A stretch of DNA of 64,000 bases from a virus: the IMG/VR virus record IMGVR_UViG_3300028920_000054, positions 26,362 to 90,361 of that record; one strand, given 5' to 3'. Position numbers and translations under genes: made by a program. Under the pieces are notes generated by a model, which had not been told where the DNA came from, made no database searches, and was given only the letters and a program-made list of their open reading frames with translations. Shown here one piece after another: positions 1,212 to 29,600 of the stretch; position 1 is the first letter of the stretch, and each line of letters begins with the position of its first letter.

Positions 1212-1212
1212 T

Positions 1213-5411: not shown

Positions 5412-6331
5412 GAATAGTCGTTACAGGTGGCAGTGGATTCTTAGGCAAATACGTTGTTGAACGGATTGGTGGAATTAGTGCGAATCATTCGGAATATGAT
5501 TTCGTAAGTGCTGAGGACGTAAAGCGGATGTATGATGAATTAAATCCAGATATTGTAATACATCTTGCCGCAAGAGTCGGTGGAATTGGCTTCAATATGG
5601 ACTACCCAGCAGTCCTTTTTTATGAAAACATAATGATGGGAACACAACTATTACACGAAGGATATGTTAGGGGGATAAAAAAGTTTATTAGCATTGGAAC
5701 CACCTGTTCTTATCCAAAGCATACCCCCATCCCGTTTAAGGAGTGCGATATATGGAATGGATATCCAGAAGAAACAAATGCCCCCTATGGTATGGCTAAA
5801 AAAATGCTCCTTGTCCAGTCCCAAGCATATAGAAAACAATATGGTTTTAATTCAATCTTTTTGATACCAACAAATATGTATGGATGCAGAGATAATTTTG
5901 ATTATAATTCATCACACGTTATACCATCACTAATAAGGAAATTCAAGGAACATGATGATGTTATAATATGGGGAGATGGGAGCGCAACTAGGGACTTTAT
6001 ATATGTTGAGGATGCTGTAGATGCAATTGTCCTTGCACTTGAAAAATATAATGGAATTGAACCCATAAACATCGGAACGGGAAAACAAACATCAATAAGT
6101 GAATTAGTAAAAATAATAACAAACATAACGTCATTTAGTGGCGATATACATTGGGACAAATCAAAACCAAATGGACAACCAGTTAGAATGCTAGACACAT
6201 CGGTAGCTAAGACAGAACTTGGATTTGAAGCTAAAACTCAAATTTACGAAGGATTAGAAAAAACAATAGCTTGGTACGAAGATGCTTATAAATGCCTAGC
6301 GCCCAAAGGAGGTACCACCAGCGTAAGTTGA
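5408..6331 (+). CDS. fcl: GDP-L-fucose synthase (3,5-epimerase/4-reductase)
   Basis: Converts GDP-4-keto-6-deoxymannose to GDP-L-fucose using NADPH. The ATG at 5408 overlaps the previous stop (ATGA) and begins [13 protein letters not shown]. Diagnostic features are HLAARVGGIGFN, SIGTTCSYPKH, the catalytic APYGMAKK (Y127/K131), PTNMYGCRDNFD, SSHVIPSLIRKF, and WGDGSATRDFIYVEDA. The length (307 aa) is typical. It pairs with gmd two genes upstream; the peptidase gene lies between them. Confidence 0.95.
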   Translation: MRIVVTGGSGFLGKYVVERIGGISANHSEYDFVSAEDVKRMYDELNPDIVIHLAARVGGIGFNMDYPAVLFYENIMMGTQLLHEGYVRGIKKFISIGTTCSYPKHTPIPFKECDIWNGYPEETNAPYGMAKKMLLVQSQAYRKQYGFNSIFLIPTNMYGCRDNFDYNSSHVIPSLIRKFKEHDDVIIWGDGSATRDFIYVEDAVDAIVLALEKYNGIEPINIGTGKQTSISELVKIITNITSFSGDIHWDKSKPNGQPVRMLDTSVAKTELGFEAKTQIYEGLEKTIAWYEDAYKCLAPKGGTTSVS

Positions 6332-7227
6332 AAACCATAAAGATTAATTTTTCCAATTGGTGGGGGTTCGGAATAGAAGAATGGAGGGCTATGTTCTCTT
6401 TTCTTGATTACAATTTTGTTCTTAGTCTTCATCCAGATTATGTTATATTTTCAAATACAGCAGAAAGAAGTATGCCAACCATCCATTGCGAAAGACGCGT
6501 TAAGAAAATATTCTTCATGGGTGAAATTATAGATGTTGACATGTCTAAATGCGATTGGGCGTTTGGAGATAATTACGTAAACAGCCCAAGGCACTTCAGG
6601 ATGCCATACTATGTTATAAGGATGTTGTATACAGGAACACCACTTGATTCGCTCATAAAAAATATAGACACAGAACAGGTAAAGTATGAAAAGACAAAAT
6701 TCTGTAATTTCCTTTTTTCAAATACAAGAGATGGTGAAACTAGGAATAGATTTTTTAAAGAACTGTCAAAATATAAGAAGGTAGATTCGGCAGGCACTTC
6801 GTTCAATAATATGGGGTTTGTTTTGGGTGGAAGACAGGGAACCAAGGTTGGCGGATATACGAAATATCCTGAAAAAATGAGATTTCTCAGAGATTATAAG
6901 TTCACAATAGCATTTGAAAACAACAGAAGCGATTATAACCCAAATTCAGGATATACGACGGAAAAACTTACAGAGCCAATGCTAGTAAATAGTATCCCAA
7001 TTTACAGGGGCAATCCAAGAATTGGTGAAGAATTTAACACAAACAGCTTTTTTAATTATTATGACTTTCGTTCAGAAAAAGAATTCATAGACTACATAAT
7101 TGAAGTTGATAAAAACGACTATCTGTATGAAGGGATGTTGGAAGAACCGTGGTTGCTTGGGAACAAATTGACAAAACAGCTAGATGTAAAAGCGATTAAG
7201 CGGCAGTTTGAGAAGATATTTAGATAG
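6328..7227 (+). CDS. GT10 family alpha-fucosyltransferase
   Basis: The 299-residue protein carries the GT10 hallmark YKFTIAFENN...YTTEKLTEPML...IPIYRGNP, the donor-binding motif of alpha-1,3/1,4-fucosyltransferases. The N-terminus KTIKINFSNWWGFG is also typical. I place the start at TTG 6328 (TTGA overlap with fcl), following the operon's habit and an AGGAGG at 6307-6312. An in-frame ATG at 6292 lies upstream of that site. It should transfer L-fucose from the GDP-fucose made by the two upstream enzymes to a glycan acceptor. Confidence 0.88.
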   Translation: MKTIKINFSNWWGFGIEEWRAMFSFLDYNFVLSLHPDYVIFSNTAERSMPTIHCERRVKKIFFMGEIIDVDMSKCDWAFGDNYVNSPRHFRMPYYVIRMLYTGTPLDSLIKNIDTEQVKYEKTKFCNFLFSNTRDGETRNRFFKELSKYKKVDSAGTSFNNMGFVLGGRQGTKVGGYTKYPEKMRFLRDYKFTIAFENNRSDYNPNSGYTTEKLTEPMLVNSIPIYRGNPRIGEEFNTNSFFNYYDFRSEKEFIDYIIEVDKNDYLYEGMLEEPWLLGNKLTKQLDVKAIKRQFEKIFR

Positions 7228-7245
7228 GGTGGTAGGGTAAGAACG

Positions 7246-7614
7246 ATGATATATTCGGGAACAAATAGAACAAGAAAATGTCACACGGCATATTATTACT
7301 ATAACACAGACGCAACGGACACAACAAGTTCAACAGAAACGTCTGGAACGACCGAAAACACACCCTTTGGCTACGAAATAAGCGAATTCTGCCACATCAC
7401 ATATATTGAACTAGCGATAAGGGTTGTTGTAGAAAGGCAACGACCCACCTATGCTACTCGGTTAACGTTTATGGCCACCCAAGAGAAACACAACACCGAA
7501 CTTTCTATTATGTTACGCAACACCAGAAAAAGATGTTGGGATAAGCTACTTACAATAAACGAAACAGGAAAAGAACGTGTAAAAAGAATGAGAAGGATGC
7601 AAAGAGCGTGTTAA
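7246..7614 (+). CDS. Hypothetical protein with a Thr/Ser-rich segment
   Basis: This 122-residue protein has a low-complexity Thr/Ser/Glu stretch at residues 22-42 and a strongly basic C-terminus (KERVKRMRRMQRAC). There is no recognisable domain, signal peptide or membrane span. It follows the fucosyltransferase after a short gap with only a weak purine-rich stretch as ribosome-binding site, so translation is less certain than for its neighbours. Confidence 0.45.
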   Translation: MIYSGTNRTRKCHTAYYYYNTDATDTTSSTETSGTTENTPFGYEISEFCHITYIELAIRVVVERQRPTYATRLTFMATQEKHNTELSIMLRNTRKRCWDKLLTINETGKERVKRMRRMQRAC

Positions 7615-9341: not shown

Positions 9342-10316
9342 ATGGCTAACACGAGTGGTAATGGTACAAGTTGGAACCTGCCAAACTATATTGGAACAAT
9401 ATATATGGTGGGGTCTGACAACAAAACCCCCTTTATTAACATGATGGGTGGGTTGGAAGGTGGAAAGGTTCGCTTGGTAGCAGATCAGCAGTTTGCGGTT
9501 TCTCAGCCTTGGGATTTGGCAACGGCTAGTTCGGCGAGTATTTCTGAAACAGCTTCAGCAACCGCATCTACAGCATATCAGTATGTAAGAAGTGCAGACT
9601 ACAACTCAACGCAGATACTTCAGAGACGGGTAAATGTTTCCTACACGAAACTATCTGCTACTGGACAGGTAACTGCCGACACTACAACCAATCTTATAGA
9701 TGCGAGCGAATGGGACCCCGCACAGAACGAGCTTGATTTCCAAATTAACGCAAACCTGAAGCAGATTGCGAAAGATCTTGAATACATATGTTTCAAGGGT
9801 GTATATCAGCAGGCTAGTTCCGCTGCTGTTGCTGGCAAGTCTCGTGGTCTTGAAGCTGTTGCTGCACTTTCCGGCTCTAGCACAGTTGCGGCTGGTAGCG
9901 TTGACCTTTCAAGAGACCTCGTAAACGAACTCTTGAGAACGATGCTTGACAAGGGTGCTGAATTTGAAAATCCCGTCCTGTTCTGTAATGCATTCCAGAA
10001 ACAGCAGATTTCCAATGAATACGGATATGAACCCGAAAGCAGGGATGTTGGTGGTGTGAATATTCAGCAGATTATGACAGACTTCTGCGTCCTTGGTGTA
10101 GTTTATTCTCCACAGGTAACTACAAGCACAGTCGTCATCGCAGATATGGCGTTTTGTCATCCTGTTTGGCTTCCAGTTCCCGGCAAGGGAGTTCTGTTCT
10201 ATGAGGAGCTGTCTAAAACGGGCGCGAGTGAAACGGGGCAGATATTCGGACAGTTCGGCCTGGACTCAGGTCCTAAGGAGTTCATAGGCTCAATTACCGG
10301 TTTAACAACAAGTTAA
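9342..10316 (+). CDS. Major capsid protein (SU10/DUF5309-like)
   Basis: At 324 aa it has the usual length for this HK97-fold group. Visible family patterns are TPFINMMGG near residue 30, QILQRRVNVSYTKLSATGQV in the middle, an N-x3-QI-x-KDLEY helix, and the C-terminal GQIFGQFGLDSGPKEFIGSITGL. An excellent ribosome-binding site (AAAGGAGAG) precedes the ATG. It forms the icosahedral shell together with the scaffold upstream. The tandem 136-residue proteins downstream may be decoration proteins. Confidence 0.88.
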   Translation: MANTSGNGTSWNLPNYIGTIYMVGSDNKTPFINMMGGLEGGKVRLVADQQFAVSQPWDLATASSASISETASATASTAYQYVRSADYNSTQILQRRVNVSYTKLSATGQVTADTTTNLIDASEWDPAQNELDFQINANLKQIAKDLEYICFKGVYQQASSAAVAGKSRGLEAVAALSGSSTVAAGSVDLSRDLVNELLRTMLDKGAEFENPVLFCNAFQKQQISNEYGYEPESRDVGGVNIQQIMTDFCVLGVVYSPQVTTSTVVIADMAFCHPVWLPVPGKGVLFYEELSKTGASETGQIFGQFGLDSGPKEFIGSITGLTTS

Positions 10317-10355: not shown

Positions 10356-10377
10356 ATAAATCCACTTGGATACATTT

Positions 10378-11247
10378 ATGCACAATCTAATTTGTCAGTA
10401 TTGCGGAAAATCTTTTAGTGCAAGAAATTGGTACGCTAAATACTGTAGCCCTAACTGTAAGTCACATGCATATTCAGACAAGCATCGTGACGAAATAAAC
10501 AGTAGGGTTCGTAAAAACAGGGCTGGCAAAGAAGACAGAAAGAAAAATGGTAAATATACGCATAAATGTATCCATTGTGGAATAACGTTTCGATCAACAA
10601 GGCCCACCTGTTTGTCCTGTGGCAAACGAGACAAACTTCATCGGCCAAACGAAAAACAAACAATGGTAGAGTTGACCTGCGAACACTGTGGAAAGGTTTT
10701 CACAAAACCTAAAGCTCAATATGTTCAGGCAACCAAAAACGGTAAAAAGTTAGGGTGCTGTCAACGGCATACACACATATTGCATGGCCGCACTCTTTCT
10801 TTAACTTGCAGCGAATGTGGAAAGACATTTGAACGGGCCAAGTCTACTTACGAACACGACAATAAGGAAGGCGGACATGTGTTTTGCTCACGGGAATGTC
10901 AAGACAAAAACATAGATTACATTCTCAGGGGCGAAGACCACTACCACTATATTGACGGAAAATCAAGTGGGTATCGTGGTAAGGGTTGGAACAAAATTCG
11001 TAAGCGTATCAGAGAACGAGATAAACATACTTGTTATTTGTGTGGTAAGACAAGAGAAGATATTGGCAAGGAACTTGATGTCCACCATTTAATTAGGTTT
11101 GAAGATTTTGAAGATGAAAACGATGCTAACCAAGGGTATAATTTGATTTCACTTTGCCCTTGTTGTCATCACACTGAAGAAATTAATCCTACAATTTTAA
11201 GGATAGTCCCGTTGATTCGGGAGCGTAAGGAACGAATGGCAGCGTAG
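10378..11247 (+). CDS. HNH endonuclease with N-terminal zinc fingers
   Basis: This 289-residue protein begins at ATG 10378 (a TTG at 10366 is an alternative). Residues 1-185 contain repeated CxxC knuckles (CQYCGKSF, CIHCGITF, CEHCGKVF, CSECGKTF, FCSRECQ). The C-terminal HNH domain is RERDKHTCYLCGK, LDVHHLIRFE and NLISLCPCCHH, with catalytic histidines and structural cysteines intact. It lies alone between structural genes that normally adjoin, with the 7-mer TACTTAC on both sides, as expected for a free-standing homing-type nuclease. Confidence 0.88.
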   Translation: MHNLICQYCGKSFSARNWYAKYCSPNCKSHAYSDKHRDEINSRVRKNRAGKEDRKKNGKYTHKCIHCGITFRSTRPTCLSCGKRDKLHRPNEKQTMVELTCEHCGKVFTKPKAQYVQATKNGKKLGCCQRHTHILHGRTLSLTCSECGKTFERAKSTYEHDNKEGGHVFCSRECQDKNIDYILRGEDHYHYIDGKSSGYRGKGWNKIRKRIRERDKHTCYLCGKTREDIGKELDVHHLIRFEDFEDENDANQGYNLISLCPCCHHTEEINPTILRIVPLIRERKERMAA

Positions 11248-13075: not shown

Positions 13076-13641
13076 TGGAAATAATAAACGGAATAGACAT
13101 AAACACAGGAGCAACAGCGGCTTCACTTTCAGACATTGCTGCAAACGTTATCGGAATAACAGGCTACGCAACAGAAGCTTCTCTTTCCGAAGGTCTTGCT
13201 GGAATTATAGGTATAACAGGCTACTCAACGGAAGCTTCCGTCTCTGAAGTTGCCTCAAGTGCGATATCAATTAAAACAACAACAGACAAATTAGCCGGAT
13301 CAATTGCCGCAAGTGCCACAACTGCAAGCTGGAACACATCAGAAGCAAACATAGTTTCAATAGGGGCCAATGACACAAAATACAAACTTCATTCTCTCGT
13401 GGTAGACATGAACGCACTTCATGTTGGAGCCACCATTACACTCAGGATGTATTCTCAAATAAATGGGACAGAACGAAAGCTGTACGATGAAGACTATGTT
13501 GTTGGAACAGACCCAGATGGCGTGTGGCTTGTGGATGGAACCGTTGGGATACACGAGGTGCTAAGAGTTTCCGCAGAAAGCAATGCGGCAACAGATGACG
13601 GTGCTTCAATACCATACGATTACATCCTTGAAGAAATGTAA
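13075..13641 (+). CDS. Predicted virion structural protein with internal repeat
   Basis: In this 188-residue protein the N-terminal half repeats IIGITGY.TEAS.SE (around residues 23-60), a helical or trimeric stalk-like pattern. A beta-rich C-terminal domain follows. It is tightly coupled to the preceding gene. Probably a fibre or decoration component; the role is inferred from context. Confidence 0.55.
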   Translation: MEIINGIDINTGATAASLSDIAANVIGITGYATEASLSEGLAGIIGITGYSTEASVSEVASSAISIKTTTDKLAGSIAASATTASWNTSEANIVSIGANDTKYKLHSLVVDMNALHVGATITLRMYSQINGTERKLYDEDYVVGTDPDGVWLVDGTVGIHEVLRVSAESNAATDDGASIPYDYILEEM

Positions 13642-13653
13642 TGGTGATGCACC

Positions 13654-14289
13654 ATGAGCGTAAATTATAACACCAAAAAACTCAAAAAGACAGCAGGGCG
13701 GTTTGGAGATTCCACAAACTATTTAGATATAGATGAAAGTGGGATACTTACCTTGGTTGGTGATGCAGAAAGAAACATAACGCTGCGTCCAGATATTCAA
13801 TACGATGAAATAAATAAGGCGGTAGCTCCATCCCTTGAATACTATGGACCACACACCTACTACTCGCTTCCTGTATGGAATGACGATGGTGAGGAAATTT
13901 TTGCCACACTAAACATACCACAGAGGTGGGATGGAACAACGGCACCACGCATTCATTTACATACGGTACTCACAGGAACAGAGGTTATTGGGCACAAGTA
14001 TAAACTAGAAGTTGCATATTCTGTATCAACTCCGTCTGGTTCTTTGGTAAGTCCTGCGTCGACGATAGCTTCAGCAGAAACAGCAATTGTTGATGGAAAA
14101 ACTTCAGCGTATAGCTGTTATCTTACAGAAGTTGATATCGGAACAGGATTTAGTTGGGATGATACGCTGTCACTTAGAGTGAGAAGGGTGGACGCAACTG
14201 AAGCAACAAACCTTGATAATGAACTCGGGTTGCACGACTTTCACGTAGACTTTAAAAGAAACAGGCTTGGTGGTGATTGGGGTTATTAA
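13654..14289 (+). CDS. Predicted virion structural protein, beta-sandwich type
   Basis: The 211-residue product has a basic N-terminus (NYNTKKLKKTAGRFG) and a long beta-rich body (LPVWNDDGEEIFATLNIPQRWDG, LSLRVRRVD). Such bodies occur in phage proteins carrying jelly-roll receptor or decoration domains. It immediately precedes the lysis cluster. Confidence 0.55.
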   Translation: MSVNYNTKKLKKTAGRFGDSTNYLDIDESGILTLVGDAERNITLRPDIQYDEINKAVAPSLEYYGPHTYYSLPVWNDDGEEIFATLNIPQRWDGTTAPRIHLHTVLTGTEVIGHKYKLEVAYSVSTPSGSLVSPASTIASAETAIVDGKTSAYSCYLTEVDIGTGFSWDDTLSLRVRRVDATEATNLDNELGLHDFHVDFKRNRLGGDWGY

Positions 14290-14324
14290 CTATGTCCATT
14301 CCGGTGGTTATAAAGGGGCACAAA

Positions 14325-14552
14325 ATGACGAGTAAGGTTTTCGGAATAATTTTCGGGACTGTTTTTGCTGGATTGATTGTGTGTTGGATTTCTAGTGTTT
14401 CCCATTCAACCGTTCAAAATAAAGTTGCTATTGCTGAAACACGTCAAGAATTAAGGTCTGAAATGAAAGGAATAGCAAACACGCTTAATATACATTATGG
14501 GCTGTTAAAAGAAATACGGGACGACCAAAAGAAGCGAAACGGTGGGTCATGA
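14325..14552 (+). CDS. Small membrane protein of the lysis cluster
   Basis: A 75-residue protein with one membrane segment (about residues 4-22) and a charged, helix-prone tail. I prefer ATG 14325, which follows AAAGGGG; in-frame starts at 14277 and 14292 lack such a site. One span plus a periplasmic coil next to a lipoprotein and an endolysin suggests an inner-membrane spanin or a pinholin-like protein. The two cannot be separated from sequence alone. Confidence 0.55.
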   Translation: MTSKVFGIIFGTVFAGLIVCWISSVSHSTVQNKVAIAETRQELRSEMKGIANTLNIHYGLLKEIRDDQKKRNGGS

Positions 14553-14989
14553 AGAAATTTGTCACCACAACTATCTTAGTAGCGTTTTTGTTATCGGGGT
14601 GTGTTGCGATGCAGGTTATACCCGAAAGAAATACGTCGCTAGAGATTAAAACCATTGTACTTACAAACGAAGCAACGATGGATTCAAGCGGTGGCAAGGT
14701 CTTGGTATTGGAGGCAGAGGCAGATGGGTGGGCTTATAAGACAATGATATTTATAAGGAACCAAACCGTTTTAGTTGAATATATGCTTCAGACCAATCAA
14801 TATGTTGTGCATGGAACAATGTTGGATAAGGATGGAAATGGCTCTGTTGATGATTGGTACACATTGGTCAACAACGTTAAGATTGAAGTAAGTTCAGAAG
14901 ACATTCAGGAATATTACGACAATAGCTTTTTGAAATTCGTTAGATATGTATCAAAAAACGGAACGCTTAATCGTGGTGAAGCGGCATGA
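14549..14989 (+). CDS. Lipoprotein of the lysis cluster (possible outer spanin)
   Basis: The 146-residue product has a type II signal peptide: a KK pair, a hydrophobic core, then lipobox LLSGC at about residue 18. The mature part is beta-rich with an acidic DKDGNGSVDDW loop that could bind calcium. It overlaps the membrane-protein gene before it (ATGA) and the lysozyme gene after it. It is longer than most outer spanins, so a superinfection-type surface lipoprotein is also possible. Confidence 0.6.
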   Translation: MKKFVTTTILVAFLLSGCVAMQVIPERNTSLEIKTIVLTNEATMDSSGGKVLVLEAEADGWAYKTMIFIRNQTVLVEYMLQTNQYVVHGTMLDKDGNGSVDDWYTLVNNVKIEVSSEDIQEYYDNSFLKFVRYVSKNGTLNRGEAA

Positions 14990-15444
14990 ACTACAAGAAA
15001 GTTAAAGAGTATATTTCTAACAACGAAGGTTGTAAGCAAAAACCCTACATGGATACCAAGGGATATTGGACGATAGGGAAGGGGCACAGGCTATTTGGTA
15101 AACCCTCAGATGAAATGATAAAAAGGGGAATTTCAGAAGAAGAAATAGAGAAATTGTTTCATCAAGACATACTCACAGCACACATGGCGTGTAAGAACGC
15201 ATTTAACGGTTTTGATTCATTCCCTGAAGATGCAAAAATAGTTTTAATGGACATGGCATTTAATATTGGTGAGGGGAGCGACACAAGAAAGACTGGGGTT
15301 GAGGGTTTTGACAACATGCAGAAAGCGGTTGAAGAAAAGAATTGGAACGAAGCGGCATGGCAAATGCTTGATTCAAAATACGCAAAAGAAGACGTGCCTG
15401 AACGGGCAATAAGGAATGCGTTGATACTAAGGAAAGTGATATGA
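14986..15444 (+). CDS. T4-type lysozyme (GH24 endolysin)
   Basis: Cleaves the MurNAc-GlcNAc bond of peptidoglycan. The 152-residue protein has EGCKQKPYMDTKGYWTIGKGH near the N-terminus. The catalytic triad E14, D23 and T29 has exactly the T4 lysozyme spacing (E11/D20/T26). LMDMAFNIGEG and AAWQMLDSKYA match the helical lobe. There is no signal peptide, so it needs a holin. It overlaps its neighbours by 4 bp on each side. Confidence 0.93.
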   Translation: MNYKKVKEYISNNEGCKQKPYMDTKGYWTIGKGHRLFGKPSDEMIKRGISEEEIEKLFHQDILTAHMACKNAFNGFDSFPEDAKIVLMDMAFNIGEGSDTRKTGVEGFDNMQKAVEEKNWNEAAWQMLDSKYAKEDVPERAIRNALILRKVI

Positions 15445-16004
15445 AAAACGACCTTTCTTTATATTTACCAGTTAGAAGTCAGATGCGAACCGGAGACCTA
15501 TTACAGTGGCATTCTAACAGTGTCCTTGGGAAGATGATTCGTGCCAAAACACACAAAGACAGACCAAAATATGAAGTAGAAAACGATATAAACGTAAACC
15601 ATTCATCTCTAGTTATATGCTTGAAGGAAGTAGAATCGGGTGACTTAAGAATACACACGAACGAAGCCATGGAAAAGGGAACAGTTCCCGCTTTTTTGTC
15701 GGTAAGGCTTCAACAGTTTGATGGCCACGTGTGGTGGTATCCACTTAACGATGAAATAGAAGGAACTTTTAACGTAGACAGAGTTAAGATAGGACGAAAT
15801 GCATTTGAATATCTTGGTGTTGGATATGATTATTGGGCAATAGCAAAAAAACTTGTTAACATCAAAACGAGAATAGATATAAGAAAATTATTCTGCAATG
15901 AATATTGTAGCGTATGCTATGGGGTAAGGATGGGTGCTGTAGCACGAAGTCCAAATGCCATGCCTAGATTACACATACACAAAACACCAATAATGATTTT
16001 ATAG
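15441..16004 (+). CDS. NlpC/P60-like (YiiX-type) papain-fold protein
   Basis: The 187-residue protein has an N-terminal SQMRTGDLLQWHS strand, NHSSLVICL with a candidate catalytic histidine, and a late FCNEYCSVCYG with a candidate nucleophilic cysteine. The order (His before Cys, permuted) fits the YiiX/YebB branch of NlpC/P60 hydrolases. It overlaps the lysozyme gene and may act as a second wall or lipid-linked hydrolase during lysis or entry. Confidence 0.6.
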   Translation: MKNDLSLYLPVRSQMRTGDLLQWHSNSVLGKMIRAKTHKDRPKYEVENDINVNHSSLVICLKEVESGDLRIHTNEAMEKGTVPAFLSVRLQQFDGHVWWYPLNDEIEGTFNVDRVKIGRNAFEYLGVGYDYWAIAKKLVNIKTRIDIRKLFCNEYCSVCYGVRMGAVARSPNAMPRLHIHKTPIMIL

Positions 16005-16012
16005 GTGGAGTG

Positions 16013-16234
16013 ATGGAAGAAATAAGTTTTCTACAATGGTTGGCAAACGGTGGGTTGCAGGACTATCTTGAATTGGTAGTTAAAAACAACGCATTTCTTT
16101 TGGGTATTATATATGGCATTCCAAAATACTTTGCTGTGGTTTTAGGGAAACAGGGGGAAAACAAACTGATAGACTTGGTTGGTTTGGGGTGGAATACAGC
16201 GAAGGAATCATGGAAAGAACGTAAAAGCAAATAG
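16013..16234 (+). CDS. Small single-span membrane protein
   Basis: In this 73-residue protein residues 20-45 form a hydrophobic stretch (NNAFLLGIIYGIPKYFAVVLG) followed by a basic tail. The start could be GTG 16010 or ATG 16013, both directly after GGTGGAG. It ends the lysis cluster and is a holin candidate. Confidence 0.55.
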   Translation: MEEISFLQWLANGGLQDYLELVVKNNAFLLGIIYGIPKYFAVVLGKQGENKLIDLVGLGWNTAKESWKERKSK

Positions 16235-16253
16235 TTATGCAGGACATTAATTA

Positions 16254-19200
16254 ATGCAGTGGGTTTTTAAAGTAGGATATAAAAAACTTGTTCCTGATTT
16301 GACAACAAGACTGAAATATTGGTCTGACTGTCAACTAGTGGACATACGCCCTTCAGGGTTTTATCCTACTAAAGCGGGAAAGCACTTCTGCATTATTGAA
16401 GACGGGAAAGATTACTGGAAAGTTAGAAGCACTACCGACTGGAAGTCCACGAAGAAAAGTGTTCTTGACCTGAAAAAATACCTTACAGTTGCAGATGCAA
16501 AGGGGAAGTATCCGTGGGATGCAGGATATAATGAAAACACGGTTCCGAAGAGAAAGCGGGACTGGTTTATTGATTACAAATCACTGTTAGATAAAAAGCA
16601 TATTACTGATTCGCAATTTGATGGAATTTACGATAAATCATGGGAGGAAATAATCGTTCTTGAGGGTGACATTACGCAATTGCTTACTCATGAAGATGCA
16701 AAAACACGCTTGCAATCTATATATTCTGATAAGACCGGAACCGTTGCACAAAACGGAGCTGGTGCAGGAACAGATGGGGCTTTTACTATAGGTGCGACCG
16801 GAGATTACGCAACCCTGACGTTGGCAGAAGCAGATATTGCGGCTCAACTCACTGGGGACTTAACCTTTGAACACCTTAATGAGCAAACCGCCATATCCTC
16901 ATTGGTACAGTTTGACCTTGATACAAATGGACACCTATTAAAAATAACAGCATCACCTGGGGCGGAACACAACGGTGGTGCGTACGGGAATGGAGCAAGA
17001 ATAGACAGGGGAACATATGATGATATCAGATGTCTTGAGACTGTCGAGGGGAGCTTTGATGATTTAGAATTTTCAAATCTAGCTTTTGATGTTTCTGGGG
17101 CTGGGAATGACGGGTTGTTCTTGTCGAATGGAGCTAAAGGGGGAACGTGGACTGTAAACCGTTGTTTGTTTAAGGGGGGGTCTAGTTCTGTTAGTCTACT
17201 AAGGGTTTATTACAATGCAAAAAACGTAATATTGAAAAACAATATTGTTTATGGAAACGATGGAACATATGGGGGAATTGTCCTAGAATCAATTTATGCT
17301 GGAAGCCATCAAGTGTATAACAATACTTGCGTTGGAAATCGTTTTGGAATCAAACAAGATTACGCTTCAGAATCAACAACAACGATGGTTTTTAAAAATA
17401 ATCTTTGTCAAGCCAATACGTCTGATTTCATTGATGATGGGGCTGGCTTTGGAACTACGGGTCACAATATTTCTGAGGACGATACAAGCCCTGACGCTTC
17501 ATACCAAGAAAAAGACCTGCATACAAATTCCATATTTTTAGATTACGATAACAACGATTATCGTCTTAATTCTGCCGGAGATGCTACAAATCTTGCCATA
17601 GTTGATGACGGTGAAGACCTGTCTGTAATATTCACAGATGACATTCAGGGGCAGACACGCTCAACTTGGTACATTGGGGCGAGCGAAATAGTCTCTAGCG
17701 AAGAAACAATAACCATAACACCTTCCATCGACGCCCTTGTTGCTAAAACATTTACCAAAACAGCCTCCCTTGACGCTCTTTTACAATCGGTCAGAACAGA
17801 CACACTTTCAATAGACTCGTTGCTTTATGCAACCAAAACGCAAGAAGTCTCGTTAGATTCGCTTTTGCAAGCAGTTAAAACAGGAGCGCTATCCATTGAT
17901 TCGTTAGTTTCCGTTGCTAGAACAATAACCGTTTCCCTTGACTCTTTATTGGCGGTGGTCGGAACCGATACAGTTTTAATAGATGCTCTTTTACAATCAG
18001 CAAAGACACAGAAAGTTTCCTTGGATGCGCTTTTACAGGCGGTTAAAAGTGGTTCGCTGTCGATTGATGCGTTACTGCAATTAACAAAGACTAAAACGAT
18101 TTCAATGGATACCCTGCTTAGTGCTGTTAAAACGGGTGAAACTTCCCTAGATTCTATGCTTGCAGTCGTTGGGACTAAGACTGTTTCAATAGACACGCTT
18201 ATTCAGGCAGTTAAGGAAGGTGTTCTGTCCATAGATACTTTGATTCAGGCAACAAAAACAACTTCGGCTTCGATAGACTCGTTATTGCAAGACAGCAAAA
18301 GCAATACGGTTTCTTTAGATTCAATGTTACGGGCAGTAAAAAGCGGAACCACTTCACTTGATTCTATTCTTGCTGTAATCGGAACAAAAACTATTTCACT
18401 TGATGCGCTGTTAAGCGCTACAAAAACAGGAACGCTTTCGATAGATTCATTGATACAAGCAGTTGGAACAAAGACGGTTTCAATGGATGCATTGTTGCAA
18501 GAAGTTAAGTCTGGAACATTGTCGTTAGATGTGTTCCTTGAGGCAACACAAACCAAGGAACTTTATTTAGACGCTCTTATAGAAGCAGTAAAGTCTGGTG
18601 TCGTTTCGTTAGATACCATTTTGTCTTCAGGCTTATCTAACACCATTTCGTTAGACGTTCTTTTACAAGCAGTAAAAACCAACACGATATCGCTAGACAC
18701 TTTAATGCTGTTGGCTAAAACGCAGACAGTCTCAATCGACACCATTCTGGCTGTCGCTAACAGCGTTGGAATATCGGTTGACGCACTTTTAGAGGCAAGC
18801 AAGGCGAACACCATTTCACTAGATTCGTTGTTACAGGCAGTAAAGAGTGGCGTGGTTTCCATAGACGCTATATTGGCAGGTGGAACAGGAATAATTCTTT
18901 CACTCGATGCTCTTTTACAAAGCACCAAAACCGGGGTTGTTTCAATAGATTCATTGGTTCAGGTTGCAAAGACAGATTCTACCATGCTTGATTCTATTAT
19001 ATCAATGACAATGGAATCGACTTCTGTGCTTGACGCTTTTATTCAAAAAGCACAGACATCTTATGTTTCGATAGACACGTTGTTGCAGTCTGTCAAAACA
19101 AAAATACTTTCGATTGATGCCCTGTTAAGTCTAGTAAAATCGGTTTCAGTTTCGATAGACAGTCTTTTGATGGCAACCAAAGATGAAGTTCTGTCCATTG

Positions 19201-19976
19201 ATGCCTTGATACAGGCTTCTTATGGCAAGACGCTTGATGTGGACGCACTGTTACAAGCAACCAAAGAAGGAACCACTTCTTTAGATGCGGTTATATTTTT
19301 GGTTGGTGGTCTTTCTGTTTCATTAGACGCACTATTGATGGCAGTAAAGAACGAAACCTTATCGTTGGATACGCTTATACAGATAACCCAAACAGAAACG
19401 GTTTCTATTGACGCTCTTTTAGGTGCAGAAAAGACCGGATTGATTTCGTTGGATTCGTTGCTTAAAATGGCAAAGACCAATTCGGTATCAATAGATTCGT
19501 TGTTGCAGTCTTCAAAAGAAGGTTTTGTTTCGATTGACACAATTATATCTCTTGTTTTTGTAAACAACATGTCTGTTTCTCTAGACAGTATGGTGGCATT
19601 GTTACAAACCAATCAGATTTCCATTGATGCCCTTATTCAAGCCGTTGGAACGGAAACTGTTTCGCTTGATACCTTATTGCAGGCAACAAACACAAGCACC
19701 GCCGTTATGGACGTTCTAATGTCTGCATCAAGAACAGGAACTGCGGTAATAGATTCGCTGATTCAAAAGGGATACACCGGATACGCCCTTATTGATGCGA
19801 TAATAGGCCACTTCCAAAGGGTTAGTCTTGATGTTTCGATAAAGCCTGCCGGATGGGTATTGCCATTCAGGTCGATGGCAGAAGCACCATGGAGAAATAG
19901 GGTAGTTTCATCAGAAGGAAGAAACATGTATGTATCCGCACCGGGTCGGACGAGAATAGTTTATAGTAATAATTAA
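16254..19976 (+). CDS. Giant repeat protein: beta-helix domain plus fifty 14-residue repeats
   Basis: This 1,240-residue protein has four parts. Residues 1-165 are globular and basic. Residues 175-475 look like a right-handed beta-helix (YATLTLAEADI, IDRGTYDDIRC, NNIVYGNDGTYGG, NNTCVGNRFGI). Residues 490-1185 consist of about 50 consecutive 14-residue units with consensus S-[IL]-D-x-L-[LI]-Q-A-V-K-T-x-T-[VL]. The aspartate at unit position 3 is kept in all of them, and all but one or two units are exactly 14 residues. A short C-terminal cap ends VYSNN. DNA copies of the unit differ widely at silent sites, so the array is old and under protein-level selection. Probably a long virion fibre or stalk. 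Confidence 0.85.
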   Translation: MQWVFKVGYKKLVPDLTTRLKYWSDCQLVDIRPSGFYPTKAGKHFCIIEDGKDYWKVRSTTDWKSTKKSVLDLKKYLTVADAKGKYPWDAGYNENTVPKRKRDWFIDYKSLLDKKHITDSQFDGIYDKSWEEIIVLEGDITQLLTHEDAKTRLQSIYSDKTGTVAQNGAGAGTDGAFTIGATGDYATLTLAEADIAAQLTGDLTFEHLNEQTAISSLVQFDLDTNGHLLKITASPGAEHNGGAYGNGARIDRGTYDDIRCLETVEGSFDDLEFSNLAFDVSGAGNDGLFLSNGAKGGTWTVNRCLFKGGSSSVSLLRVYYNAKNVILKNNIVYGNDGTYGGIVLESIYAGSHQVYNNTCVGNRFGIKQDYASESTTTMVFKNNLCQANTSDFIDDGAGFGTTGHNISEDDTSPDASYQEKDLHTNSIFLDYDNNDYRLNSAGDATNLAIVDDGEDLSVIFTDDIQGQTRSTWYIGASEIVSSEETITITPSIDALVAKTFTKTASLDALLQSVRTDTLSIDSLLYATKTQEVSLDSLLQAVKTGALSIDSLVSVARTITVSLDSLLAVVGTDTVLIDALLQSAKTQKVSLDALLQAVKSGSLSIDALLQLTKTKTISMDTLLSAVKTGETSLDSMLAVVGTKTVSIDTLIQAVKEGVLSIDTLIQATKTTSASIDSLLQDSKSNTVSLDSMLRAVKSGTTSLDSILAVIGTKTISLDALLSATKTGTLSIDSLIQAVGTKTVSMDALLQEVKSGTLSLDVFLEATQTKELYLDALIEAVKSGVVSLDTILSSGLSNTISLDVLLQAVKTNTISLDTLMLLAKTQTVSIDTILAVANSVGISVDALLEASKANTISLDSLLQAVKSGVVSIDAILAGGTGIILSLDALLQSTKTGVVSIDSLVQVAKTDSTMLDSIISMTMESTSVLDAFIQKAQTSYVSIDTLLQSVKTKILSIDALLSLVKSVSVSIDSLLMATKDEVLSIDALIQASYGKTLDVDALLQATKEGTTSLDAVIFLVGGLSVSLDALLMAVKNETLSLDTLIQITQTETVSIDALLGAEKTGLISLDSLLKMAKTNSVSIDSLLQSSKEGFVSIDTIISLVFVNNMSVSLDSMVALLQTNQISIDALIQAVGTETVSLDTLLQATNTSTAVMDVLMSASRTGTAVIDSLIQKGYTGYALIDAIIGHFQRVSLDVSIKPAGWVLPFRSMAEAPWRNRVVSSEGRNMYVSAPGRTRIVYSNN

Positions 19977-19996: not shown

Positions 19997-20503
19997 ATGG
20001 CGAGCACCATCCAGATACACGAAATGAGCGGGTTAACAACCGGTACGGACAAAACTTCAGGAACGGTAAGATTTAAACTAGCGGACAACGCTACGGTAGA
20101 TACTTCCAATCCGTTGGTTGTTCCTGCTGCCGGAAGTGATTATTCGTACACAAAACAGCTAAGGGCATATATGGAAGCACCCCCAAGTTCTTCCGTATCA
20201 AACTTAAAATGGTATTCAGACGGATTCAATTCCTTCGGAACCGGAATAACAGTAAATGCCCTGAATAAAGGAACCACGTGGGTTGCTAATTATGAAACGG
20301 AAGCAACCGGAGGGGCAGACCTTTTCAGTTATGCTTCAGGAACACCGCTTGATGGCGACACAACCGATGCGGGACCATTTACATTGTCAGATGACGATTC
20401 TTACATAGGGGATTTGATACTCTTGCAGATGATTGTAGCATCAACAGCCACTAACGGAGTTAAGTCTGCGGAAACATTGACATTTTCATTCGATGAAGTT
20501 TAA
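19997..20503 (+). CDS. Predicted virion structural protein, 168 aa
   Basis: Beta-rich, Thr/Ser/Gly-rich protein starting after AGGAGG. The pattern TIQIHEMSG...TSGTVRFKLADN suggests a beta-sandwich associated with the fibre protein upstream. No family is recognised. Confidence 0.6.
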   Translation: MASTIQIHEMSGLTTGTDKTSGTVRFKLADNATVDTSNPLVVPAAGSDYSYTKQLRAYMEAPPSSSVSNLKWYSDGFNSFGTGITVNALNKGTTWVANYETEATGGADLFSYASGTPLDGDTTDAGPFTLSDDDSYIGDLILLQMIVASTATNGVKSAETLTFSFDEV

Positions 20504-20519: not shown

Positions 20520-20816
20520 ATGCAGAAAAACTATGTTTGGGAAGCTGAAAGGTCAGACGGAACCATTGTTGCAAAAGGTGAAAACCTTGAGGATTGTGTA
20601 AGGTTTTCTCTTATTCCATTTAGTTTCGGATTGCAGAGATTCGATCTGATAGGAATTAAAATGAAACGCAGATTCTGTCGTGGATTTATAAATGCCCTTG
20701 GTGGGGGATACAAAGATTATCTTCACTGCATAGTGTGCGATGGCTTTAGGGTGTGGGTAAGTTATAAAAGTGGAAGGGTTTGGATTTTACCTGAAGACTA
20801 TGAACTTAGGCTGTAG
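20520..20816 (+). CDS. Hypothetical protein, 98 aa
   Basis: A basic, aromatic-rich small protein (KMKRRFCRGFINALGGGYKDY) with three cysteines and no clear zinc motif. It is in the late operon with short gaps on both sides. Function unknown. Confidence 0.5.
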   Translation: MQKNYVWEAERSDGTIVAKGENLEDCVRFSLIPFSFGLQRFDLIGIKMKRRFCRGFINALGGGYKDYLHCIVCDGFRVWVSYKSGRVWILPEDYELRL

Positions 20817-20826
20817 GGGATAGGTT

Positions 20827-21153
20827 ATGGCATTTGGAGCAAAACAATCAAGTGAATTGTATTATGTACTGTTTGACTTTGATGAAGACCTTAATCCTAC
20901 AGATTCAGATGGGACTTCTCTTGCCACGGATAGTCTTGCGTCTATTGCTACAGTATCTGTTGTTGACCAGAATACAGGGTATTCGTTTGCAACCCTTGTG
21001 GACACTTCAAAGAACTCTGTTGATTCTACAAGGGCGTGGGTGTGGGTTAAGGATGGGACTTCAGGGCACAATTATAAAATAACGGTGCTGGTTCTTACGA
21101 ATTCAAATGCAAAGTATGAAATGGATGGAATTTTACCAGTGAGGGATAAGTAA
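20827..21153 (+). CDS. Ig-like beta-rich head/tail-region protein
   Basis: In this 108-residue protein the C-terminal part (WVKDGTSGHNYKITVLVLTNSNAKYEMDGILPV) matches small Ig-like proteins that usually precede the DnaT-like head-completion gene in phages of this type. It shares its last base with the next start. Confidence 0.6.
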   Translation: MAFGAKQSSELYYVLFDFDEDLNPTDSDGTSLATDSLASIATVSVVDQNTGYSFATLVDTSKNSVDSTRAWVWVKDGTSGHNYKITVLVLTNSNAKYEMDGILPVRDK

Positions 21154-21623
21154 TGCCGACTGTAGATTCAACAAACTCATATAGAACTATAGCACAGATA
21201 GACACATATTGTGAAAACCATGGACTCACTGAGTGGGCAGACGCCTCAAACTATGACAAAGAAACTGCCGCCTTAAGGGGCATGGCTTACATAGAATCAA
21301 AAATGTATAAGGGGCAGAAATATTCAAGCACCCAAGACAGAAAATGGCCACGGATAAATGCCACGGATGAAGACAATGTTGTGATAGATTATTCTACGAT
21401 TCCCGATGCTATAGCAAACGCTCAATGCCGTGCGGCCTATGAAGAAATTGTCAGTCCCGGAATTTTGCAACCAAACCTTTCGAGGGATTCGTTTACAAGC
21501 AGAGAAAAAATTGACGTGATAGATATAAGCTATGAACCGGGAAGAAACAAAACGGCATTTCAAGTAATAGATGGATACTTAAGGGGGTATCTGTTGCAAA
21601 CCGGAACGCTAATAAGGTGTTAG
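21153..21623 (+). CDS. Head-completion/connector protein (DnaT-like family)
   Basis: The 156-residue protein follows the PF20557-like pattern: NSYRTIAQIDTYCENHG, a helix AALRGMAYIESKMYKGQKY, WPR, then IPDAIANAQCRAAYE. These proteins are encoded between capsid and neck genes and form the portal-proximal adaptor ring. Despite the family name they are structural. Genes immediately after it are neck and tail-completion proteins, consistent with this role. Confidence 0.75.
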   Translation: MPTVDSTNSYRTIAQIDTYCENHGLTEWADASNYDKETAALRGMAYIESKMYKGQKYSSTQDRKWPRINATDEDNVVIDYSTIPDAIANAQCRAAYEEIVSPGILQPNLSRDSFTSREKIDVIDISYEPGRNKTAFQVIDGYLRGYLLQTGTLIRC

Positions 21624-21632
21624 GAGAAAATC

Positions 21633-21824
21633 ATGGGTATAACTTCAGAAGCAGCCCTTAAAAGGGGTTTGATTGCGGCGAACGAAAGAATAGCATCACT
21701 TGAAAAGTTGGTGAAGTTTTTTGAAGAAAAGGCCATTCAAGAAGAAGCATTAAAAGAAGAAGCACAGAAAAACCTTTACGACTTGGTTAAGAAGATAGAA
21801 AAGAAAGCCAAAAAAGACGAATAA
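21633..21824 (+). CDS. Small coiled-coil protein
   Basis: A 63-residue protein, almost entirely charged helix with heptad spacing (ANERIASLEKLVKFFEEKAIQEE). Good AGGAGA site. It overlaps the next ATG by one base. Probable assembly helper; the role is not known. Confidence 0.55.
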   Translation: MGITSEAALKRGLIAANERIASLEKLVKFFEEKAIQEEALKEEAQKNLYDLVKKIEKKAKKDE

Positions 21825-22180
21825 TGGATTACGATGCCATTGCAACCAAAGCAAACGCTTTAATAGTAAAATATGGTGGAGATGTTGTTCTAACACAGAC
21901 ATCGCTTTCTTCAACATATTCTACGCTTACACATTCGTATACCAAGACCACAAAAACGTATTCGTGTAAGGGCGTTTCAAGGGAACATTCAAAAGGTTTA
22001 TTGCCTGCATCATTGGGAGTTGGTTCGGATGAAGACTTTTTGTTACCTGCGTCTTTGGCAGTAGCTCCGGTTCCAAACGATACGATGACATTTAGCGATG
22101 TAACATACTATATAGATAGGGTAAGGCCGGTGGCCCCCGGTGGAACAACATTGCTTTACAAGGTATGGGTTAAGGGATGA
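21824..22180 (+). CDS. Head closure/neck protein
   Basis: A 118-residue beta-rich protein beginning with a short helix (YDAIATKANALIVKYGGDV). Its position between the adaptor and the gp10-like gene, and its size, match head-closure (stopper) proteins of siphoviruses. It overlaps the next gene by 4 bp. Confidence 0.65.
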   Translation: MDYDAIATKANALIVKYGGDVVLTQTSLSSTYSTLTHSYTKTTKTYSCKGVSREHSKGLLPASLGVGSDEDFLLPASLAVAPVPNDTMTFSDVTYYIDRVRPVAPGGTTLLYKVWVKG

Positions 22181-22650
22181 GAAACTATCCAATAGATACT
22201 AATGCTGCCGGATTTATGAAAACACTTCGGAAAATTGGAGAAGACATAAAGGCAGACGCAAAAAAGATGGTAAATGGCGTTGTTACAAGAACGCTTGATT
22301 CTGAAATTGCAGCATCACCGGTTGACAAAGGAAATTATATCGCAAGTCACAGGGTTGCGGTTAATGCAGAACGGACAGACTTTTATAATGGCGACTTTGG
22401 TGGTGCAAGATATAGCGAAGCAAGGGCACAGGCAGGGGCGAATTATTCAAAGCAGGAGGCGGCTGATTTTGATTGGAATTTTGGTGATAGTTCTGTGTGG
22501 TTTTCTAACCATGTACCACACGCAAGTTACGTTGAGTACGGAAGTCCTTCGTGGAAATATACCGGCCCGTACTTGATTTACGCTCAGGCCGAAGAAAGGG
22601 TTAAGAACATATATATCCCCGAAGAAGCTAAGAAAGTTGGCTGGGAATGA
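22177..22650 (+). CDS. HK97 gp10-like neck/tail-completion protein
   Basis: In this 157-residue protein the pattern of the gp10 family is visible: an N-terminal amphipathic helix, IAASPVDKGNYIASHRVAV (the TPVDTGxLRxS region), NHVPHASYVEYGSPSWKYTGPY, and a final helix. It bridges head and tail. It overlaps the tail-terminator gene by 4 bp. Confidence 0.8.
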   Translation: MRNYPIDTNAAGFMKTLRKIGEDIKADAKKMVNGVVTRTLDSEIAASPVDKGNYIASHRVAVNAERTDFYNGDFGGARYSEARAQAGANYSKQEAADFDWNFGDSSVWFSNHVPHASYVEYGSPSWKYTGPYLIYAQAEERVKNIYIPEEAKKVGWE

Positions 22651-23048
22651 CGATTCAAGAAGTTTACAATGCGCTTGATGCCTATATAAATGTTTCGTGG
22701 ACGACAACTTCCATTCAGGCAGAGAATTATGAATTTGACACCGAAACAACCACTCCATATATTCAACCGCTGTTTGTTCCTGATGTTGTGGCAGAAGGGG
22801 AGGTTGCTGGAAGCAATAGTGCCGGTGTAAGCATAAGATACGGAACGTACATGATTAACGTGTACAGACCAAAGAATGAAGGTCTTGCAACCATAATGGG
22901 GTATTTGAGTACATTAGAAGGATTGTTTTATTACAAAGACATTAAGTGTGTAAATACTGAAAGGCCATATTCGAGAAGGATAGGAATAGAAGGAAATTTT
23001 GTTAGGTGGGTAGTTATAATACCATGGTTTGCATTTGTTAATGAATAG
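22647..23048 (+). CDS. Tail terminator protein
   Basis: A 133-residue DUF4128-like protein: an N-terminal helix (TIQEVYNALDAYI), a beta strand with YIQPLFVP, and GTYMINVYRPKNEG, a core strand-turn of tail terminators. It caps the tail tube and joins it to the neck. Gene order agrees. Confidence 0.75.
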   Translation: MTIQEVYNALDAYINVSWTTTSIQAENYEFDTETTTPYIQPLFVPDVVAEGEVAGSNSAGVSIRYGTYMINVYRPKNEGLATIMGYLSTLEGLFYYKDIKCVNTERPYSRRIGIEGNFVRWVVIIPWFAFVNE

Positions 23049-26598: not shown

Positions 26599-26636
26599 AA
26601 AGCCGAGCAAACCTAAAAAGTAGCTTGGCTTTTTGC
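26597..26636 (+). terminator. Intrinsic terminator before the tape measure gene
   Basis: AGCCGAGC (26601-26608) pairs with GCTTGGCT (26623-26630), with one G-T wobble, and five T residues follow. It overlaps the chaperone stop and probably reduces tape-measure expression relative to the tail tube. Confidence 0.65.
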
Positions 26637-26647
26637 GTGGAGATGCC

Positions 26648-29600
26648 ATGGCAGGCGTAAGATTCAGCATTGATACATCTGGAGTTTCTACCGGGGCAAA
26701 CAAGGCAGTTAAAGAGTTTGAACGGATAGGTGCGGCTGCACTAAAAACTGAAACCCAAATAAAGAAATTAGAGGCATCAATGGGAATCAGTGGGGCTAAG
26801 ATGCAGGGAGCTGCCAAACAGACCGATGCCGCAACAAAGGCTACAAAAAACTATGGGAATGCAGCCAACCTTGCTGCCACTAGTCAAGCAAAACTGGCTA
26901 AAGCCACACAGTCTTCACACGATAAATTAGTAACGTTCGTAAGGTCTGTAGCTTCTACTGCTGCAACGTTAATGATCTTAGATAGAGTTTTAACAAAAGT
27001 TGCAGCGGATATGAAAATAGGAATGGACTTTGAGCAGGAAATGGCACGAGTAAGGGGTGTCATGCGAGCTTCTGTGTCTGAATTTAATGCACTATCAAAA
27101 GCCGCTAGATTGGCAGGAGAATCGACGGTGTGGACTGCATCTGAAGCAGCAAACGCACTAAGATATCTTGCCATGGCTGGATTTTCAGCGAAAGAATCTC
27201 TTTTGTCTCTAAGTGGTGTCTTGAACTTAGCGCTTATCGGAGAACTTGACCTTGGAAGGGCAACTGATATAGCGTCCGACTCTTTGCGTGCTATGAACCT
27301 TGAAGCGGACCAGATGAACAGAGTTGTTGATGTGTTCACCGGAACCATAACAAGGTCTAATACAAACATCGAAATGATGGGCGATGCAATGAAGTTTGCA
27401 GCACCACTTGGTGCTCAATTAGGGTATACAATAGAACAACTTTCGGCAATGATAGGAACGCTATCACAGTCTGGAATCAAGGCTGGAATCGCTGGGCGTG
27501 GCTTGCAGATGGCATTCATAAAAACTTCCGATGCGGCAAAAAAGCTTGGACTGTCTGTGGATGCAAACTTGATAGATGTTATAAAGGCTTTGGCACAGCA
27601 AGAGGTTTCGGCAACAGAAATATCCAAGATGTTTGGAGCACGTGCATTAAAAACAGTTTTAGTGCTTAAGAGCAACATATTCCAATATGAAAGATTTGCC
27701 AATACACTCAAGCACGTTGGTGGGGAAAGCCAAGCATACATCGACCAATTGGATACCATGGAAGTTGCACTTACAAAACTTAATTCCATGATCGCATCCA
27801 TAAAGATAGACATTTATATGCACTATCTTACTTCACTTAAAAATGCCACCAAAGACCTTACAAAGTTTCTAGGCGACAACCGAAAGACAATAGAATTGTC
27901 AATAATAGCAAGCTTTAAACTTGCCAAAATATTGGGCGAAGGTGGTGTGCTTTTTATCGCATACAAACTTTTAACCAAAACCGTTGGGACATCTTCTGTT
28001 GCCTTAAGATGGTGGAATGCTTCTCTTGCTGGAACTATTGCCATATCAAAGTACGCAGTAAAAAGTCTTTTTACGCTAAAGGGAGCGTTTCAGGGACTGT
28101 TTGCTTTCTTGGTCGGATGGGAAATAGGAAAATATCTTCGAGAAAACTTCTTAGAAGCACGGATAGCTGGAGTTGTAGCTGTTGACTTGATAATGAAGGC
28201 ATGGATAAACCTTAAGTATGCAGTGTTGATATCTTGGGAGCTAATAAGCCATACCGTTAAGTCGGTAGCAGATTCGATGGTTGGATTTTTCAACAGTGCG
28301 ATAGAAAAAATAAAATCAGCATTTGGAACAATGCTTGGTTGGATAGCGGATAAGGTTTCTTATGTTACCTTTATGGGAGATGCTGCTAAGTCATTAAAAG
28401 ATGTAGCGGATGGATTAAAGGAAATTTATACCATAGAGGGTCACACAAAAAGCATGATATTCGACGACTCTAGCGCTATGGATAAAAATCAAAAAAGCAT
28501 TAGAGAAACCGTTGATGCAATAAAAAAACTTACAGACGAAAGAAAGGTGGCCCTTTCTGAACATCAGAAAATTATCAATGCTATGGTTGATGAAACGGCA
28601 AAAGTCGATGTGCTTCAAAAGGCTGAAGTTAAACTTATGGCAACAATAGAAGACCACACAAAAGACCTTTGGGCGTTTAGGACAGAGCTTGTAGAAACCA
28701 CAAAAGATTTGCTTAAATACCGTGATGCACTTACCTTAGAACAAAAAGAAAAACTTTACGAAAAATATGCAAAAGAATATCAAGCGCTTTATTATGGAGA
28801 AAAAGAATACAAGTTAATGATGCTTGATGAAGAGGCGGAAGCTGTCAAGGAAATGCTCAGCAAACAAATTACTAGCAAAAAAGCCTTTGCATTGGTTTCT
28901 GCCCAAATAGACGAACTTATATCTAGCAAGAAAAGATTATTAATTATAGCAGACCTAACCCAAGCGGCAAGTTTCTATAAAGACTTAATAGGTTTTGAAG
29001 ACACATATCACGATACAATGATGAAACTTATTGATGAAGAACAAAAAAGGAAAGCCGAACTATATAAAGATGATGTTGCTGCTGCAAAATGGGCAGCACA
29101 GGAAAAAGGAAAACTTGAACAAGACTTATTTGAAAAGAAAACTAAATATATAGCTGAAGGATTCGGAGAACTTGCTTCTGCATTTTCTGATATTGCTGGG
29201 CTTTATGATGATGGCTCTTCCGCAGCAAGGAGATGGCAAGAAGCGTCTAAAGTAATGGAAATGGCACAGAAGGCCGTTGCTGTTGTTAATGCAGTTGCGG
29301 CCATAGCCAATCAGGGATTGGGCGATCCATATACTGCGTTTGCTAGAATTGCGGCAATGACAGCGGCAATGGCTTCTTTACTTTCAACAATTGGCGAATC
29401 GGTAGGTGGCGGCGGTGGGGGTGGTAGTTTGTCAGCATCTTCTCTTACTGCAAGCACCGTTCTTGGTGCTGAAGCTGGTACGGGTAGTGAATCAACCACA
29501 AAATCATGGGAACTTCTTGAAGATACCTACAATATGGAATACAGAGAATTGTCTGGTATTTATAATGAAATGAAGGATTTAAACAAAAATATCAGCGGTC

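Follow-up and report, generated by a model that had tools for sequence, protein, structure and literature searches.

What does a virus make with a gene that repeats a 14-residue unit fifty times, a few kilobases 3' of its major head gene? The gene in question, at 16254–19976 on the + strand, lies in a 64,000-base stretch of DNA, here called the window, which covers bases 26362–90361 of the 90,361-base IMG/VR virus record IMGVR_UViG_3300028920_000054. It is an open reading frame (ORF) of 1240 amino acids in the ORF list, and the protein has no acceptable Pfam or PHROG match. We consider it probable that this repeat protein is the length-variable stalk of an appendage on the head or neck of a tailed phage, with an exchangeable outer domain at one end and, at the other, a tail that docks on two neighbouring gene products, g168 and a gp77-like adaptor. 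Phage appendages determine what the particles stick to, and many environmental ones resist interpretation, their stalk repeats being absent from family libraries. The unit described here is easy to recognise, and in combination with the conserved tail and neighbour genes it flags a likely appendage locus in uncultured phages.

The repeat array and the layout of the protein

The array is a run of 50 units with the pattern S-[LI]-D-[AST]-L-[LI]-Q-x-x-K-T-x-T-[VLI], placed by a motif scan at 17724–19829 (+ strand). It begins at residue 491 (base 17724), its final unit occupies 19788–19829, and the units tile without gaps. Spacing is 14 residues in 48 of the 49 intervals, the sole exception being a spacing of 16 from unit 44 to unit 45 (19530 to 19578). 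Position 3 is aspartate in all 50 units, encoded by GAT in 29 and GAC in 21. When the 700-residue array was shuffled 2000 times, the best phase had 7.5 Asp on average and never more than 13; the observed 50 of 50 is therefore not a matter of chance. The original prediction had counted fifty units, nearly all of exactly 14 residues and all with this aspartate, and had held that they do not stem from a recent expansion. The scan confirms the counts, and the silent sites agree with the dating: at fourfold-degenerate third bases 64.2% of comparisons differ (2013/3135), against 67.1% expected if bases were drawn randomly from the array's own usage, and mean nucleotide identity between the window units is 48%. 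With silent sites this near saturation, the array is old and its protein pattern is maintained by selection.

The array is only part of the protein, being preceded by a 490-residue N-terminal region (16254–17723, + strand) and followed by a short C-terminal tail. The N-terminal region has no Pfam match and no tblastn match in 50,697 phage records; from about residue 165 onward it is probably a right-handed β-helix, judged by eye from its likeness to the corresponding region of a relative, L017 (relatives carry locus labels of this form). Among seven N-terminal regions compared with Pfam, Beta_helix in L017 and Laminin_G_3 in L007 and L045 scored above the cut-off, L023 stayed below it, and L005, L011 and L028 gave no match. 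Another relative, L064, carries a collagen-like stretch of the tail-fibre kind. The layout common to many members is a variable N-terminal domain, then the array, then a C-terminal tail whose period is 9 residues.

In the window this tail has 48 residues (19830–19973, + strand), and its last 38 show the 9-residue period (p = 0.002 against shuffles). Across the family 33 tails were long enough for the test; 20 are significantly self-similar at a lag of 7–12 residues, and 19, the window's included, peak at lag 9. The control applied the lag-9 test to the C-terminal 40 residues of 484 ORFs, taken from the window and 31 loci, a pass being a score reached by at most 2 of 1000 shuffles. Eighteen of the 22 that passed are repeat proteins, and the repeat proteins that failed include L011, L014, L021, L023 to L026, L040, L041, L050 and L062. 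The 9-residue-period tail is therefore nearly confined to the repeat family and is not universal within it.

An unnamed family in environmental contigs

The array is a member of a widespread and apparently unnamed repeat family. The first relative found, L001, has about 84 units (85 motif matches, one of them split), spaced by 15 residues in 46 cases and by 14 in 35. A search with g168, the 168-residue protein encoded next to the repeat gene, returned 30 loci, 24 of which encode repeat proteins, some on near-identical contigs. To avoid the bias of a g168-based search, DNA patterns of three spaced units were also scanned. The first such scan gave 35 IMG/VR contigs, 31 of them confirmed by a hidden Markov model (HMM) of the unit at E <= 1e-8, and the second gave 12 new pieces, of which 8, on 8 further contigs, were HMM-confirmed. 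The confirmed total is 39 IMG/VR contigs, 11 already met by the earlier searches and 28 new. Copy number across the family ranges from fewer than 10 to more than 100 units. Two very long repeat proteins, of 2064 residues in L050 (2013–8204) and 2309 residues in L053 (555–7481), have no g168 within the pieces examined.

Among genome contigs, 79 stretches carry the DNA pattern, and only L105 and L103 match the unit HMM at E <= 1e-8; four further stretches match it weakly (6e-7 to 0.0047). L105, a GTDB contig from a metagenome-assembled genome binned as Patescibacteria, carries both the repeat and g168. L103 is a Paenibacillus ORF of 152 residues with about six near-identical units and an HMM score of 35, and we judged it to be unrelated: its 15-residue units (1372–1827) score weakly and look like a recent expansion of separate origin.

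The original prediction knew of no named repeat with this period and pattern, and that holds in the libraries covered, which were Pfam-A, PHROGs and PDB sequences, with NCBIfam and PADLOC outside the scope. The best Pfam match of the window array is BatD at 18.0 bits, below the cut-off of 24.1; the best PHROG match has an E value of 0.11 and none is acceptable, nor is any PDB sequence match. The array of L050 likewise matches no Pfam or PHROG family, and in L064 the collagen-like part alone does so. The divergent L001 array has a short match to phrog_2737, of unknown function (E 4.6e-7), and no stretch of it passes alone. The profile search proposed with the prediction, built from the unit itself, recovers the unit's own family, and these libraries offered no characterised repeat family in its place. 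In the open literature searched, with most subscription papers and all bioRxiv preprints outside the scope, we found neither five literal unit strings nor a published description of the repeat, and a search for 'fiber-tail adaptor' returned nothing. The repeat, its 9-residue-period tail and its g168 partner are thus without a name in the libraries and literature searched. A fibre stalk built of repeats is itself an already known kind of thing; the tail-fibre repeats in the available part of PMC2248197 are different ones, unrelated to this array.

In the 50,697 phage records the window array had a single tblastn match, to Aeromonas phage vB_C4. We rejected it because it falls in the antisense frame of a gene with a 14-residue repeat of its own, and the frame has stops in most units. 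That gene (L003, PQ676986.1, coding sequence 13628–18208) encodes a large protein whose unrelated repeat lies near the C-terminal end. A weak match in the huge phage LR745206 was also rejected, as it shows no unit-HMM match and a different 14-residue repeat. This other repeat sits in a 727-residue frame (L153, LR745206.1 197299–201901) of a 634,780-base uncultured phage. The arrays of L005, L050 and L066 and two g168 proteins had no credible match in the phage collection.

The rules of the unit were drawn from 49 proteins cut into 1404 units, of which 935 are 14 residues long, 417 are 15 and 52 have other lengths. Residues 3, 4 and 6 were fixed by the cutting rule, and conservation there is partly by construction; nor are all units independent, as one array stretch is common to L049, L053 and L069, and L067 contains L043. 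Four L103 units were kept among the 1404, and L013 was left out for having too few. The family consensus reads [ST]-[LIV]-D-[AS]-x-[LI], and hydrophobic residues are frequent at position 14. In a second calling, which used only positions 2, 4 and 6 between two good neighbours and so freed residue 3 alone, Asp was found at residue 3 in 1145 of 1182 units, Asn in 20 and Glu in 5. Asn is tolerated more than Glu, which suggests that the side chain serves as a hydrogen-bonding group rather than as a charge. Positions 2, 5 and 7, which were free in the cutting, contain no proline in 1352 units; of the 104 prolines, 100 are at positions 8–15, where the extra residue of the 15-mers falls too. The 15-mers have hydrophobic residues at 2, 5, 6 and 9, Leu or Ile at 11, and Ser or Thr at position 1 in about 59%. 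Their position 10 is mostly Gly, Asp or Asn (Gly 57% and Asp 20%, protein-weighted), and Gly in the 14-mers is at about 12%. Charged residues are common at position 5 in L064 and L050.

Gene neighbourhood and the proposed role

In the window the repeat gene is situated between capsid and head–tail-joining genes. The genes given with coordinates in this paragraph are on the + strand. The upstream anchor is the major head protein (9342–10316; PHROG 1328, E 2.4e-38), which has matches in 26 phage records, those listed being annotated as major head or capsid. In order, the upstream genes are scaffolding, major head, HNH endonuclease, two small virion-structural or tail-fibre-like genes, lysozyme and a 187-residue gene without a family. 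The repeat gene is then followed by g168 (19997–20503), by the 98-residue g98 (20520–20816), a second conserved neighbour, and by the 108-residue gp77-like gene (20827–21153). Head–tail adaptor Ad1, head closure Hc1, tail completion/Neck1 and tail terminator come next (21153–23048; PHROGs 477, 161, 169 and 179), and after the tail terminator PHROGs name a glycosyltransferase, a minor tail protein, a tail chaperone and the tape measure protein (26633–32140; PHROGs and Pfam), which begins about 6.7 kb beyond the repeat gene. The distance from the major head gene to the repeat gene is 3.9–5.9 kb in the window, L008, L062 and L073; in L008 head closure Hc3 follows the repeat gene, and a head structural PHROG is matched by one upstream gene of L025.

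Among the partners, g168 and its L005 homologue match no Pfam or PHROG family. The g168 gene is present in 24 of the 39 pattern-hit contigs (19/31 and 5/8 in the two scans) and in 13 of the 28 newly found, many pieces being short. Of the 24 g168 loci with a repeat gene, 18 have it upstream of g168 and 6 have it downstream. The strongest functional hint comes from the gp77-like neighbour, which is a homologue of the podophage GP4 fiber-tail adaptor gp77 (PF23148). The family profile is matched at E values up to 0.1 (best 5e-16) by each of the 13 homologues aligned, among them the window's; the L001 protein alone reaches 18.7 bits, below the 27-bit cut-off. The likeness to GP4 concerns this neighbour gene only, and the presumed fibre of the window consists of a repeat that no family name covers.

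On this basis the variable N-terminal domain, probably a β-helix in the window and LamG-like or other in relatives, would form the outer and probably sugar-binding end of the appendage. The 14- and 15-residue repeats would make up the stalk, with copy number setting its length, and the 9-residue-period tail would act as an anchor that assembles on g168 and the gp77-like adaptor near the head–tail joint. Many projections at this joint are also described for Alteromonas siphophage R7M, where the available part of PMC8265664 reports hairy whiskers at the head–tail interface that ORF28 of the head–tail module may encode. We regard these collar whiskers as a likeness of possible working, not of membership. 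A more specific picture is tentative and, as a whole, somewhat doubtful: an undescribed environmental-phage stalk folded as a flat β-solenoid with an Asp ladder on each face, fewer than 10 to more than 100 units long, bearing swappable carbohydrate-binding domains and docked by its tail on a base of g168 and the gp77-like protein at the neck.

Several observations tell against a head or neck appendage. No family member was found in the phage collection searched, and the virion location is predicted from gene order. In L008 the major head gene is separated from the repeat gene by two genes with tail-type PHROG matches, which makes the module there not one of head genes only, and in L062 the head–tail adaptor precedes the repeat gene. 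PHROGs name none of five genes tried in L019 and give one weak tail match among four in L028. Of the 39 contigs only 9 show a gp77-like gene and 14 a relative of g98, partly because the pieces are short, and membership of PF23148 is no proof of fibre binding, the bridging role being predicted. Finally, 13 of the 33 testable tails lack a significant period, and 12 more are too short.

Some of this evidence bears on a different placement, that of a tail fibre or tail-tip adhesin encoded near the head genes without belonging to the head. LamG and β-helix domains are usual in tail fibres, the small window neighbours have fibre-type PHROG matches, and the collagen-like segment of L064 is of a tail-fibre type. 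The tail-type matches between the head and repeat genes of L008, together with the low gp77-like count, slightly strengthen this placement and slightly weaken ours. The window gene nevertheless precedes Ad1, Hc1 and Neck1 and stands well ahead of the tape measure gene, and its pairing with g168 is a conserved one, so that we rate a tail fibre as unlikely. Its position a few kb 3' of the capsid gene would also suit a head decoration, internal or scaffolding protein that does not protrude as a fibre; the LamG and β-helix domains at the N-terminus of some members are better suited to an exposed protein, and the wide variation in copy number also counts against such a role, which we consider decidedly improbable. 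A neck or head appendage with a repeat-built stalk is the reading we retain.

Further genes in and around these loci deserve mention. The HNH endonuclease gene (10366–11247) lies immediately 3' of the major head gene. At 340–7611 the window has a sugar-gene cluster with two nucleotide-sugar epimerases, an aminotransferase and a methyltransferase (named by PHROGs), and the glycosyltransferase gene begins at 23029; these sugar genes possibly serve virion-protein glycosylation. L001 has a 414-residue gene (4691–5935), with homologues in L005, L021, L022 and L028, between g168 and the g98 homologue, and by eye it resembles a glycosyltransferase fused to a methyltransferase.

Predicted fold of the repeat units

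The fold is less supported than the role, and here a β-solenoid is favoured by modelling. A first AlphaFold2 (AF2) job on the C-terminal 302 residues, with 22 gapped rows, gave mainly strands at a mean predicted local distance difference test score (pLDDT) of 56.8, with residues 249–302 below 50 and a short helix of low confidence at the start. A second job on ten units, with 39 nearly ungapped rows, gave a pLDDT of 90.3 and a predicted template modelling score (pTM) of 0.78, the five models ranging from 82.5 to 90.3. The model is all β, with ten strands, one in each unit and each some 11 residues long, interrupted at positions 10–12, where the Gly, Asp or Asn at position 10 of the 15-mers falls. 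Each unit would be a single strand running from position 13 to position 9 and closed by a short turn at 10–12, with two units per turn of a flat β-solenoid; residues 14, 2, 4 and 6 would face inwards, and the side chain of Asp 3 would form a hydrogen bond. The original prediction had proposed either a novel solenoid or a rod of capped short helices and had called for a model of 6–10 units; the first of these is what AF2 predicts, with confidence and not as disorder, and the capped helices do not appear in the ten-unit model.

The residue pattern agrees with this model to a degree. The β moment exceeds the α moment over positions 14–9 in 34 of 40 proteins, and the gathering of prolines and of the extra 15-mer residue at positions 8–15 likewise counts in favour of strands. 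Against a solenoid, however, stand the low pLDDT of the first job, a tie of the two moments over positions 1–11 (20/40 proteins), and a position 5 that is hydrophobic in most proteins and so compatible with a helix too. On two units per turn, a similarity-lag test was mixed, with lag 2 highest and lags 1, 3, 4 and 5 raised as well, and alternation in unit length did not reach significance at short lags. In addition, the available part of PMC11795689 reports that AF2 is biased towards β-solenoids for repeats and treats stacked charges as a warning sign, and a solenoid of these units would stack its aspartates in just that way. The same source describes four diverged natural families that all methods modelled alike, with an imperfect mucin still doubted. 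The present units are diverged too, with a mean column identity of at most 46%, which favours the AF2 model, but the Asp ladder is an odd feature. The array is in this respect a test of how AF2 behaves on natural, diverged repeats, and its strict Asp and 14/15-residue rule make it a compact test of the shortest repeat able to build a rigid rod.

The same stalk could instead be built from short helices at positions 1–9 of each unit, N-capped by Ser, Thr or Asp and, in the 15-mers, C-capped by Gly, as a rod of capped helices or a strand–helix solenoid. The 15-mers fit such a unit in their hydrophobic positions, in the frequent Gly at 10 with Leu or Ile after it, and in their Ser/Thr at position 1; the helix that opens the 302-residue model and the reported AF2 bias lean the same way. 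The wholly β ten-unit model speaks for strands, as does the charged position 5 of L064 and L050, which breaks the helix face and spares the 14-2-4-6 alternation, and helices seem to us a rather doubtful choice, though one with a real chance. That the units are only a disordered, low-complexity linker, kept by codon- or DNA-level repeat expansion, is very improbable. Leu, Ser, Thr, Val and Ala are abundant in the array, as they might be in such a linker; its silent sites are saturated, yet the Asp, the period and the hydrophobic positions persist, the hydrophobic content is high, and the AF2 model is confident. The β-solenoid is the likelier fold, and we compared its ten-unit model with known structures.

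Foldseek with this model found no PDB entry at E <= 0.001, FapC coming first at 3.6e-3, and one entry of the viral library at E <= 0.001; the first, poorer model gave no usable match. In VIA-align 2, a comparison limited to the families in its list, structures of the SufB/SufD type aligned with Z scores of 8.9–11.5 at 2.1–2.3 Å over 137–138 of 140 residues, and CsgA with a Z of 12.2 and a root-mean-square deviation of 8.4, where by the tool's own warning a repeat Z below about 13 may mean a common arrangement only. The SufB/SufD core, CsgA and FapC are flat β-helices or two-strand β-solenoids, and the likeness is one of the predicted model only: no sequence similarity was found, and those proteins are not phage stalks. 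Viral stalks with a similar repeat length are the triple β-spiral fibres of the adenovirus and reovirus type, homotrimers whose repeats have about 15 residues and a conserved Gly or Pro in the turn. The window array differs from them, as its 700 residues hold no proline and its units are 14-mers, a class with Gly at position 10 in only about 12%, in contrast to the glycine-rich turn of the 15-mers elsewhere in the family.

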